NCBI RefSeq assembly: GCF_000397065.2
Contig: NZ_KE007306.1
Coordinates: 354,448 to 418,447, forward strand
Reading direction: 5' to 3'
Length of the DNA: 64,000 nt
Source: Marinobacter lipolyticus SM19
Lineage (GTDB): Bacteria > Pseudomonadota > Gammaproteobacteria > Pseudomonadales > Oleiphilaceae
The notes under the pieces were generated by a model. That model ran no database searches. It worked only from the letters and a program-made list of their open reading frames with translations, and had not been told where the DNA came from. Positions 7,846-50,135 of the stretch are shown piece by piece; the first letter of the stretch is position 1; every line of letters begins with the position of its first letter. Both the position numbers and the translations under genes were made by a program.

Positions 7846-7922
7846 ACGCAGTTCCTTTTTTGCTAGCGCCTCTGGATACAACCGCAAGCCCGGCGCCACA
7901 TCCACCAGAATACGTGAGAATC

Positions 7923-9269
7923 ATGGCCAAGAAGCTGTACATCAAGACCCACGGCTGTCAGATGAACGAGTACGATTCTGCCCGAATGGCGGACCTGCTC
8001 AAAACCGGTGAAACCGTCGAAATGACGGACACACCCGATGACGCCGACATTCTTCTGCTGAACACCTGCTCCATTCGCGAGAAAGCCCAGGAGAAAGTGT
8101 TTCACCAGCTCGGCCGCTGGAAGGGACTCAAAAGCAAAAAACCGGACCTGATCATCGGCGTGGGCGGCTGCGTGGCCAGCCAGGAAGGTCAGGCTATTCT
8201 CGACCGCGCCCCGTATGTGGATATGGTGTTCGGTCCACAAACCCTGCACCGCCTGCCGGACATGATTACCGAAGTGCGCTCCAAGGGTAACGGTGTTGGC
8301 GTGGTGGACGTCAGCTTTCCGGAAATCGAGAAGTTCGACAACCTGCCCGAGCCCGGCGCTGACGGTCCATCGGCATTTGTGTCCATCATGGAAGGCTGCA
8401 GCAAATACTGCACCTTCTGCGTGGTGCCTTACACCCGTGGCGAGGAAGTCAGCCGTCCGGCGGACGACGTGATCGCAGAAGTGGCACACCTGGCGAGCCA
8501 GGGCGTGCGTGAGGTGAACCTGCTGGGCCAGAACGTTAACGCCTACCGTGGTGAAACCCACGATGGCGACACCATGGACCTGGCGGAACTGATCACCCTG
8601 GTGGCCGCCATCGACGGCATCGACCGCATCCGCTATACCACGTCACACCCGGTGGAGTTCACCGATGCCATGATCGAGGTGTACGAACAGGTCCCGGAAC
8701 TGGTCAGCCATCTGCACCTGCCGGTTCAAAGCGGTTCGGATCGTATCCTGGCAGCCATGAAGCGTGGTCACACGGCGCTGGAGTACAAATCCAAGCTCCG
8801 CCGCCTGCGCAAGATCCGGCCGGACATCAGCTTCTCGTCGGATTTCATTATCGGATTCCCCGGCGAAACCGAGAAAGACTTTGAGGACACCATGAAGCTG
8901 ATCAATGATATCGGCTTCGATATGTCTTTCAGCTTCGTTTACAGCGCCCGCCCGGGTACTCCGGCGTCGGATCTGCCGGATGACACTCCGATGGAGGTGA
9001 AGAAGCAACGCCTGAGCATTCTGCAGGACCGGTTGAATCAGAATGTCATGGATATCAGCCGCAAGATGGTGGGCACGACTCAGCGTATTCTGGTGACTGG
9101 CCTGTCCAAGAAAGACCCGGGAGAATTCGCGGGCCGGACGGAGAATAACCGGATTGTGAATTTCCGGCATGAGAATCCGAATGTTGTGGGGCACTTCATC
9201 GACGTCGAGATTGTTGAAGCTTATCCCAACTCCTTACGCGGCGTGCCTGTTAACGCGGAGTTGTTTTAG
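7923..9269 (+). CDS. miaB: tRNA-2-methylthio-N6-dimethylallyladenosine synthase MiaB
   Basis: 448 residues. MiaB is a radical SAM methylthiotransferase acting on i6A37 of tRNAs, the step after MiaA (encoded here at 41671). The N-terminal UPF0004 domain has [12 protein letters not shown] and NTCSIREKA, with cysteines for the second iron-sulfur cluster. The radical SAM cluster motif CSKYCTFC starts at Cys159. A C-terminal TRAM domain follows (residues ~380-445). I start at ATG 7923 because [13 protein letters not shown] is the family start; an upstream in-frame start would add 21 residues unlike the family. It heads the miaB-phoH-ybeY-corC-lnt row, but 490 bases rich in palindromes separate it from phoH. 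Confidence 0.95.
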
Positions 9270-9305
9270 GGTTCGGCTCTTATTGGTTCGAGCTTGGAGC
9301 ATGGC

Positions 9306-9411
9306 GAGTGGTGGGGCTTCCCTCCCAAAAACCGCTACAAGCACGTCCGTGTGCGCTTCTCTCCGGCCATCCATGGCCTCCGAAATTTTTGGGAGGGAAG
9401 CCCCACCACTC
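9306..9411. repeat. Constant-centre palindrome, copy 1 (perfect 26-bp arms)
   Basis: Arms 9306-9331 and 9386-9411 are perfect reverse complements over 26 bases (GAGTGGTGGGGCTTCCC...). The 54-base centre, read on the minus strand, has GGAGGCCATGGATGGCC followed by AAGCGCACACGGACGTGC and TTGTAGCG. The same centre occurs in the palindromes at 9593 and 49913 with quite different arms. This copy lies in the 490-base miaB-phoH gap, which holds no gene that I can support. Confidence 0.85.
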
Positions 9412-9465
9412 TCCGCTGACTACGAGCGTGCACGCGCTGAGGAAATTCCAATAAGCGGTTTTATC

Positions 9466-9552
9466 GTAGGTTGGATTAGACGAAATAATAATCCAACAAA
9501 AACATGCGACCTCGAATTTTGTCGGATTACGACCTTGTCTAATCCGACCTAC
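9466..9552. repeat. Inverted pair of REP-like hairpins, copies 2 and 3
   Basis: 9466-9497 reads GTAGGTTGGATTA...TAATCCAACA and 9519-9552 reads TTGTCGGATTAC...TAATCCGACCTAC in the opposite orientation, a two-unit arrangement like REP/BIME elements. The first copy has TTGGATTA/TAATCCAA in place of TCGGATTA/TAATCCGA, so both sides of the stem changed together. Confidence 0.75.
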
Positions 9553-9592
9553 TTGTTTTTCAGTTTCGGGCCTGCAAATAGTTAGTTAAGTT

Positions 9593-9696
9593 GGGGTGTG
9601 GGGCACCTTCCACAGACTGTTGAGGGCCATGGACGGCCCGAAACAAGCGCACATGGATGTGCTCGTAGCGTGTCTGTGGAAGGTGCCCCACACCCC
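9593..9696. repeat. Constant-centre palindrome, copy 2 (perfect 25-bp arms)
   Basis: Arms 9593-9617 and 9672-9696 are perfect reverse complements (GGGGTGTGGGGCACCTTCC...). The 54-base centre has GAGGGCCATGGACGGCCC, then AAGCGCACATGGATGTGC and TCGTAGCG, matching the centres of the copies at 9306 (opposite orientation) and 49913. The centre itself contains two small hairpins: GGCCATGGACGGCC and GCACATGGATGTGC. It ends 64 bases before phoH. Confidence 0.85.
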
Positions 9697-9760
9697 GACC
9701 TGACTCAAAATTCAGAAAAGCTGACTCCCGGCAAACCACGGGAGTAAAAACGGAGCACCT

Positions 9761-10744
9761 TTGAAAGCCAACGATTCCAGACAATTTGATCTGCACCCGG
9801 TCGATCAGCACCGGCTGACCACTCTCTGTGGCCAGTTCGATGAGCATCTCAAGCACATTGAACGGCGCATGCGGGTCAAGATTGGCCGCCGTAACCACCA
9901 TTTCCGTGTGGAAGGCGAAACCGAGCATGTGGCTGCGGCCGTCGAGGTTATCCGGCACCTGTATCGGGAAACCGACGCCACTGACGATATTTCCCCCGAT
10001 ACCGTTCACCTGTTCATTCGTGAAACCGGCTTCGAGCGCCTGCCGGAAGATGTTCCCTACGACGGCTCTGTTACCGTCATCAAAACCCCCAAACTGCAGG
10101 CCAAGCCCCGCGGCGCCAACCAGCAGAAGTATGTGCACAATATCCGCACCCATGACATCAACTTCGGTATTGGCCCGGCCGGCACCGGAAAGACCTGGTT
10201 GGCGGTCGCCTGTGCGGTGGAAGCCTTGAAGGATGAGCAGGTCAAACGCATCCTGCTGGTTCGTCCGGCGGTGGAAGCCGGTGAGAAGCTGGGCTTCCTT
10301 CCGGGCGATCTGGCCCAGAAAGTGGACCCTTACCTTCGCCCACTGTACGACGCCCTTTATGAGATGCTGGGCTTTGACCATGTCACCCGGCTGATTGAAA
10401 AGAGTGTGATCGAAATTGCGCCCCTTGCCTTTATGCGTGGCCGCACCCTGAATAACTCGTTCATCATCCTGGACGAGAGTCAGAACACCACCCGGGAACA
10501 AATGAAGATGTTCCTGACGCGGATTGGCTTTGGCTCCACGGCGGTGATTACCGGCGATACGACTCAGGTTGACCTGCCCCGCGGTGAAAATTCCGGACTG
10601 ATTCACGCCTCCGGCGTGCTGAGCAAGGTCTCTGGCATTGGCTTTACACGCTTTGAAGCCAGGGACGTGGTTCGCCACCCCCTGGTCCAACGCATCGTGG
10701 AAGCCTACGACTCTTTTGACGGCGGGAGTGCCACCGGCAAGTGA
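9761..10744 (+). CDS. ybeZ: PhoH-like ATPase (YbeZ)
   Basis: 327 residues. YbeZ is a cytoplasmic P-loop ATPase that works with the rRNA endonuclease YbeY, encoded next. An N-terminal KH-like region (DEHLKHIERRMRVKIGRR) is followed by the PhoH domain with Walker A GPAGTGKTWLA near residue 145, LVRPAVEAGEKLGFLPGDL, and Walker B FIILDESQNTT. The start is a TTG at 9761 with GGAG 5 bases upstream; the next Met is at residue 37 and would cut off the conserved LCGQFDEHLKHIE segment. The end overlaps ybeY by 4 bases. Confidence 0.92.
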   Translation: MKANDSRQFDLHPVDQHRLTTLCGQFDEHLKHIERRMRVKIGRRNHHFRVEGETEHVAAAVEVIRHLYRETDATDDISPDTVHLFIRETGFERLPEDVPYDGSVTVIKTPKLQAKPRGANQQKYVHNIRTHDINFGIGPAGTGKTWLAVACAVEALKDEQVKRILLVRPAVEAGEKLGFLPGDLAQKVDPYLRPLYDALYEMLGFDHVTRLIEKSVIEIAPLAFMRGRTLNNSFIILDESQNTTREQMKMFLTRIGFGSTAVITGDTTQVDLPRGENSGLIHASGVLSKVSGIGFTRFEARDVVRHPLVQRIVEAYDSFDGGSATGK

Positions 10745-49875: not shown

Positions 49876-49912
49876 GCGTAATTCCTCAAAACTGTCGGTT
49901 TGGTGCAGGGTG

Positions 49913-50015
49913 CTGGCGGGTGTCACGGTCCGGGACTGTCGGAGGCCATGGATGGCCGGAGATCAAGCGCACAGGGATGTGCTTGTAGCGTGTCCCGGAG
50001 CGTGGCACCCGCCAG
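49913..50015. repeat. Constant-centre palindrome, copy 3
   Basis: Arms 49913-49936 and 49992-50015 pair over 24 bases with two mismatched positions (CTGGCGGGTG...TCCGGGAC). The 55-base centre reads GGAGGCCATGGATGGCC, AAGCGCACAGGGATGTGC, TTGTAGCG, almost the same as at 9306 and 9593. It lies between divergent orn and rsgA, so upstream of both genes rather than at gene ends. Confidence 0.85.
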
Positions 50016-50135
50016 TGCCCGTAAAGTCAGATAAATTCTCAGAGGTTGATGCCAATCGTGCGGGCTGCGATCCTCAGGTTAGCGTATGATGTCACAGCAA
50101 ATACCACCCTTCATCAAGAATCCAGAAATTACTTC

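Follow-up and report, generated by a model that had tools for sequence, protein, structure and literature searches.

Judged by sequence, the two palindromes that lie side by side between the presumed miaB and phoH genes of Marinobacter lipolyticus SM19 belong to a real and widely distributed high-copy family, a variant of an RNA motif that has been catalogued but not characterised. The reading that we prefer, at a probability of roughly 0.6, is that its members are CsrA-binding RNA repeats of the TwoAYGGAY kind (Rfam RF01731), and that their arms are kept matched by template switching together with weak selection on the strand that carries the GGA loops. The window, i.e. the whole stretch of 64,000 nucleotides that was analysed, contains the following features, with coordinates in the own genome (G000) given in brackets.

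9302-9417, minus strand: copy 1, whole match to covariance model R1 (G000 C1:363749-363864), in the miaB-phoH gap
9306-9331, minus strand: copy 1, arm that is the 3' arm of the GGA strand, perfect inverted repeat
9341-9354, minus strand: copy 1, hairpin P3, GCAC-ACGGAC-GTGC
9365-9378, minus strand: copy 1, hairpin P2, GGCC-ATGGAT-GGCC
9386-9411, minus strand: copy 1, arm that is the 5' arm of the GGA strand, perfect inverted repeat
9586-9701, plus strand: copy 2, whole match to model R1 (G000 C1:364033-364148), upstream of phoH
9593-9617, plus strand: copy 2, 5' arm
9625-9638, plus strand: copy 2, hairpin P2, GGCC-ATGGAC-GGCC
9649-9662, plus strand: copy 2, hairpin P3, GCAC-ATGGAT-GTGC
9665-9670, plus strand: copy 2, conserved GTAGCG in the interval between P3 and the 3' arm
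9672-9696, plus strand: copy 2, 3' arm
about 49905-50021, plus strand: third copy in the window (G000 C1:404352-404468), found with the P3+tail pattern and the covariance model

The coordinates and a reverse-complement check bear out the original prediction that the arms are perfect inverted repeats of 26 bp in copy 1 (9306-9331 with 9386-9411) and 25 bp in copy 2 (9593-9617 with 9672-9696), and that they differ between the two copies; an inverted-repeat search of the window returned them as repeats of 29 nt (97%) and 41 nt (85%). The 54-nt centres (9332-9385 and 9618-9671) are indeed oppositely oriented, and both small hairpins are present, as are the TGTAGCG or CGTAGCG ends described for them, but to call the centres nearly the same was slightly generous, as 42 of the 54 positions agree. 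The flanking open reading frames, 7860-9269 (plus strand) before copy 1 and 9761-10744 (plus strand) after copy 2, we take to be miaB and phoH, respectively; the PhoH product is present in all 61 genomes of the genus. Between the two copies, at 9466-9552 of the window, there is also an imperfect inverted repeat, GTAGGTTGGATTAG ... CTAATCCGACCTAC, with 36-nt arms (81%), which recurs in many relatives' element-bearing miaB-phoH gaps and looks like a separate, REP-type repeat.

In regard to the size of the family, a pattern of P3 and tail allowing up to three mismatches matched three places in the window, where shuffled sequences gave 0.00 on average. Searching the genome with the centre alone, as had been suggested, did reveal a dispersed family: an arm-free pattern of 25 bases occurred at 26 places, 24 of them with scorable arms and two with a run of 10 N in the hairpin. 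Several copies (L013, L020, L142, L157, L162) have such runs of 10 N within their hairpins, which looks like a failure of short-read assembly at palindromic sequence. The covariance model built from the 24 scorable own-genome copies gave 72 matches in the same genome with E-values no higher than 0.01; some few of these are only partial, and all 26 pattern places are among them. With the own genome counted in each case, the element was found in 60 of the 61 genomes searched in the genus, in 86 of 244 in the order and in 37 of 274 in the class. The number of matches per genome within the genus ranged from 0 to at least 60, with several genomes holding only 3 to 11, and one nearly complete genome (G048) had none, compared with at least 60 in others. 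Among the 80 stretches listed out of 115 named loci with the tip pattern, 37 were titled Marinobacter, while the other names among the matches listed were Microbulbifer, Halomonas, Saccharospirillum, Sedimenticola, Thiofilum, Catenovulum, Pectobacterium and others. Of the 37 Marinobacter loci, 27 align over at least 800 bp, at up to 91% identity, with the stretches compared from the own genome or from that of a relative, G053, as do 3 of the 43 other loci. A phage origin was considered and set aside, the exact tip pattern being matched by one IMG/VR contig. Tandem forms exist as well, as a Saccharophagus metagenome contig carries three tips at steps of about 153 bp (L340:2181-2512).

The idea that the centre occurs as often without arms, which would make the architecture a product of chance, applies to a minority of cases only. 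In the 80 listed named loci there were 90 centre matches, of which 8 at the edges were dropped; in 66 of the 82 usable ones the stem exceeded all of 150 random positions. The stem was not above random in the remaining 16, several of them with shorter or interrupted arms by eye, so that long arms are missing from a minority of centres.

Read 5' to 3' on the GGA strand, the element opens with the first arm of the stem P1, about 29 nt long, and a GA-rich stretch; hairpins P2 and P3, separated by a short joint, come next, and a tail (YGUAGCG in most of the 24 aligned copies) leads to the second arm. Folding of each of the 24 copies gave a very stable stem, with the long P1 capped by the two hairpins. 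In their alignment, every one of the 29 P1 pairs is changed on both sides in some copy, and 95.8% of the P1 cells are paired; shuffling lowers this share to 65.6%, and sliding the partner lowers it to 48.1% or less. What is conserved is the tip, where the loop letters read CA-GGA-G with two intervening letters free. After duplicates, TCC-rich (i.e. antisense) matches and own copies with N or an inserted domain had been dropped, 184 elements were left, of which 175 have two CANGGANG loops; in 174 of those 175 the distance from GGA to GGA is 20-22 nt. Of 358 loops, 186 have C-G and 164 have A-T as the letters just outside. Two ANGGA were also kept in 26 of the 29 top-scoring elements that come from other families of the class, where the arms look unrelated. 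According to passages of the respective papers, the consensus of CsrA/RsmA-type sites, as given for RsmE, is A/U-CANGGANG-U/A (PMC6849547), and ANGGAN in a hairpin loop constitutes a CsrA-type site (PMC3791407). This consensus is found here in hairpin loops and in pairs, as in CsrA/RsmA-binding RNA, and both tip loops look like putative sites of this type. In regard to the distribution of the protein within the class, csrA was detected in 35 of 37 genomes with the element and in 200 of 237 without it (p 0.13); the two element-bearing genomes without csrA are incomplete assemblies (88% and 67% complete). This co-occurrence is weak and speaks neither for nor against CsrA binding.

The closest catalogued relative is TwoAYGGAY, which is listed as a table entry in PMC2864571 and, in a passage of PMC4333381, proposed to bind CsrA. 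Neither this closeness nor the CsrA/RsmA type of the two tip loops is part of the original prediction. At the Rfam gathering cut-offs no match was obtained for the window, for 16 own loci or for 20 distant loci; the TwoAYGGAY scores reached 35.3 bits on copy 2 and 39.3 bits at best in the own genome, below the cut-off of 43 bits. The microRNA and other families that came up in a relaxed E-value search of Rfam were taken as chance matches to a long hairpin. On the other hand, elements that by eye have the same design exceed the TwoAYGGAY cut-off in two other genomes (G481, 55.0 bits; G513, 49.1 bits), and within the class 13 of the 274 genomes have matches above the cut-off, with many copies in several of these 13. 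Nine such loci that were folded have long, mutually different arms. The resemblance lies in the outer stem and the two hairpins with CAUGGAUG-like terminal loops, and one difference in the letter after the first A, which here is T, G, A or C and hence not strictly AYGGAY. We take the Marinobacter family and TwoAYGGAY to be one kind, with a continuum between them, and our proposal extends the suggested CsrA binding to the Marinobacter family. In the accessible passages of PMC2864571 and PMC4333381, no mention was found of the GTAGCG tail, of tip subfamilies, of about 70 copies per genome or of paired drift of the arms for TwoAYGGAY, and the open-access literature on the tip sequences, TwoAYGGAY, and dispersed CsrA-type or Marinobacter repeats yielded no description of the Marinobacter family.

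Within a copy the arms are complementary, as had been anticipated. In 177 elements, after duplicates, matches with fewer than 16 pairs and matches without two ANGGA were dropped, 3960 of 4065 inner arm cells were Watson-Crick pairs, 59 were G.U, 9 were A.C and 37 were other combinations. The expectation that arms would be unrelated between copies holds for the most part, since only 2 of 1953 pairs of own copies have arms at least 80% alike, but not entirely, as the mean identity of the 5' arms among the 63 copies without N is 48%, compared with 27% from base composition. The arms therefore seem mostly private, with a weak common pattern, and not wholly free. Of the 72 own-genome matches, the 4 with under 18 paired positions were skipped in one analysis. 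G.U outnumbers A.C (binomial p 4e-10, for elements collected with a model that prefers G.U to A.C), and this excess was seen in the own genome (21:2), in the best genus loci (19:0) and in the genome of another species, G053 (13:2), and was not seen in the orthologues at the phoH site (6 G.U and 5 A.C). This excess points to the GGA strand as the one whose fold is kept, although a single-stranded DNA hairpin could be an alternative source of the same asymmetry.

The placement of the copies relative to genes presents the main difficulty for a simple role in mRNA. Of 71 copies, 29 lie in convergent gaps, whereas among 75 other gaps in these loci 10 are convergent (p 2e-4); the count is based on simple scoring of open reading frames, with the elements barred from the frames and two copies in one gap counted twice. 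Another 8 of the 71 copies lie in divergent gaps, and those in co-directional gaps divide evenly, with 17 sense and 17 antisense. Furthermore, neighbouring copies within 400 bp stand as (-)(+) in all 9 pairs. With no orientation bias and with such pairs, many copies would not expose their GGA loops in read-through mRNA, which counts against a simple mRNA or 3'-UTR role; such copies would need antisense read-through, or promoters of their own, to be transcribed from the right strand.

The same observations give some room to a reading in which the family is a mobile or recombinogenic repeat acting at the DNA level, similar to REP or BIME, with the single-stranded hairpin as the substrate of a transposase or a nucleoid protein and the GGA loops serving as a signal for that protein and not for CsrA. 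Dozens of dispersed copies, their variable number within one genus, the inverted pairs, the equality of sense and antisense, and presence or absence at the same site would all be in line with it, and the asymmetry between G.T and A.C is also expected from a single-stranded DNA hairpin. However, each tip carries two CANGGANG that vary at the N positions of the CsrA site, also in genera with unrelated-looking arms, and orthologous copies persist between miaB and phoH in 15 and 16 of 30 species. We consider this explanation possible but on the whole unlikely. REP, BIME and REPIN sequences are small, intergenic, dispersed palindromic repeats, often in inverted pairs, in which the stem sequence is the conserved part and with which, in the case of REP and BIME, a RAYT transposase is associated; the present family shares with them the small dispersed palindromes and the inverted pairs and differs in that the stem varies and the tip is conserved. 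MITEs have conserved terminal inverted repeats and a target-site duplication, whereas the arms here are not conserved between copies and no duplication is visible at the one clean empty site.

Several differences between species bear on how copies arise and change. The copy at C1:888054 is absent from G053, where 183 bp, more than the hairpin, are missing, the empty site has no arm sequence and no target-site duplication is visible, the difference extending beyond the arms; this is the only clean empty site, and insertion and deletion are not distinguishable there. An origin of the arms by capture from each insertion site, which had been offered as one possibility, was rejected on this empty site without arms, and it also finds no support in the outer-arm word GAGTGGTGG, which 12 of the 15 species with copy 1 retain. 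At the miaB-phoH site a single arm or part of an arm is left in five genomes, by eye (L110, L111, L116, L125, L128). Two orthologous sites, C1:404352 (the third copy of the window) and C1:1218096, hold the element in opposite orientation, and in G053 the tips and inner arms suggest that the (-)(+) pair C1:1134791/1135004 has been inverted as one block. The changes of orientation at the two sites could reflect inversion or replacement of the whole element instead of spacer flips. A two-orientation mixture model of the flanks of 69 own copies called none of them flipped; because the flank consensus is weak, flips of the tip and of the whole element are not separable from the flanks.

A structured domain of about 75-95 nt (GTGAGGC..TATGAAGC..GCTTCATGCG.. 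in most) was also observed inside the GGA loop of P3, and once of P2. In the own genome, its pattern was found three times, always in such tips (G000 C1:351356-351514, C1:453437-453493 and C20:437244-437401; L166, L165 and L164), and the domain is also present in G053 (L240 and L176:818-1016). At the domain sites 65, 50 and 33, the orthologous copy in another species has a plain loop, and the domain is possibly an insert with the hairpin loop as its target.

The strongest indication of how the arms stay matched comes from orthologous copies. In the miaB-phoH gap of 30 genomes (own included, some loci broken by contig ends), copy 1 is present in 15 and an element stands at the place of copy 2 in 16. 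The middle of the copy 1 arm changes on both sides together, while at the place of copy 2 the own arms and tip are unlike those of the other 15 genomes, so that one or the other was replaced. For a genome-wide comparison, G053 was used, whose PhoH is 98% identical to the own one; the four-fold divergence of 0.30 taken as the neutral yardstick is that of one gene, phoH. Of 28 own copies with both flanks in the G053 slices, 18 entered the count, with the arm register of each orthologous pair set by the best agreement among five offsets. The ten dropped were those with a different element (index 10, 53), a tip deleted in G053 (16), opposite orientation (20, 70), an N gap (23), absence in G053 (26), and a tip insert or a partial element (50, 65, 71); in index 50 the arms look identical. 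For index 0, the partner taken from G053 was the element that stands where index 23 is expected, as tips and inner arms point to an inversion of the pair.

Among the 432 arm pairs compared, 345 were the same, 77 had changed on both sides, 8 on one side only and 2 otherwise. All 77 double changes lead to another Watson-Crick pair, 40 by transitions and 37 (48%) by transversions, and transversions cannot pass via a G.U intermediate. A Markov model with independent mutation and selection fitted to the pair frequencies predicted 3.4 double and 15.8 single changes at divergence 0.30, or 8.5 and 18.5 at divergence 0.45, with a transversion share of 25-28% among the doubles. The doubles are thus about 9 to 20 times above expectation and the singles below it, and this excess, combined with the shortage of singles, favours the arms being kept matched by templated mutation; the suggestion of arm correction by hairpin templating in the original prediction is well supported by these counts. 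According to PMC8794818 and PMC8604942, homogenization by template switching between the arms of inverted repeats is established, and the pattern observed here, i.e. arms changing together, transversions included, with few intermediates, is the one such switching should leave. 6S RNA, taken as a control with 56 pairs and every pairing of 20 genomes, showed 74 changes on one side and none on both, with 164 G.U in 1120 cells, and is too conserved to be fit for this purpose.

Alternatively, the arms could be replaced in blocks by recombination with other copies, and not corrected base by base. Inner arm blocks do differ as a unit at orthologous sites 9 and 28, the whole element differs at sites 10 and 53, and 40 of the 77 doubles adjoin another change, which may include block exchange with other copies. 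The other 37, however, are isolated, with an unchanged pair on either side, some of them in otherwise identical arms (sites 3, 6 and 43), and donors of whole arms are scarce, given how few pairs of copies are at least 80% alike. As the general explanation of arm change, block replacement is in our opinion rather improbable. Ordinary compensatory selection on the RNA stem alone, without templated mutation, is the standard reading of covariation, and the 59:9 ratio of G.U to A.C agrees with it insofar as the fold of one strand seems to be selected. It fares worse against the orthologue counts: 77 doubles to 8 singles is far from both expected ratios, 3.4:15.8 and 8.5:18.5, and nearly half of the doubles are transversions, where about a quarter would be expected, which makes selection alone a very doubtful account. 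Equally doubtful is a bidirectional terminator or 3'-end stabiliser with an incidental tip, which would suit the enrichment between convergent genes and the very stable stem, but the 3' arm is followed not by the T run of an intrinsic terminator but by a C-rich flank (consensus cCCCCcaAa in 69 own copies), and it is the tip that is conserved while the stem varies.

CsrA-binding repeats with template-switched arms, the reading that we prefer, share features with two sets of known systems. CsrB/C, RsmX/Y/Z and, according to a passage of PMC5864184, Alteromonas Aln1a-c likewise carry ANGGA-type sites that bind or are expected to bind CsrA. Those sequestering sRNAs, however, come from few genes with many sites each, in contrast to two sites in each of dozens of copies here, and no promoter or terminator of its own was identified for the copies. 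With quasipalindrome correction, as described in parts of PMC8794818 and PMC8604942, the family shares the homogenization of arms and multi-base compensatory change; inversion of the spacer is known there, and here two orthologous sites have the element in opposite orientation. What sets the family apart is that the correction seems to operate on about 70 long-armed copies in one genome around a conserved spacer of 54 nt.

In a transcript running in the GGA direction, the tip would present both binding sites to one CsrA dimer, with the long stem holding and protecting it, and the copies could act as CsrA sites in 3'-UTRs or jointly as a distributed sink for CsrA. In the palindromic DNA, the polymerase would switch template between the arms and copy a change from one into the other, and together with weak selection for the fold of the GGA strand this could keep the stems matched while their sequence drifts. 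A more far-reaching version, which from the sequence data we put forward only tentatively and would not expect to hold in full, is that the family forms a distributed CsrA buffer in Marinobacter and many gammaproteobacteria, made of dozens of mobile two-site hairpins whose private stems would be matched chiefly by DNA mutation and secondarily by selection.

How RNA stems stay paired while both of their sides change is an old question. With about 70 replicate stems of about 29 bp on a constant tip, and with orthologues at hand, counts of changes can tell template switching apart from compensatory selection. Should the tips bind CsrA, this family alone would provide such a genome with about 140 chromosomal CsrA sites, which would change models of CsrA titration in these bacteria.
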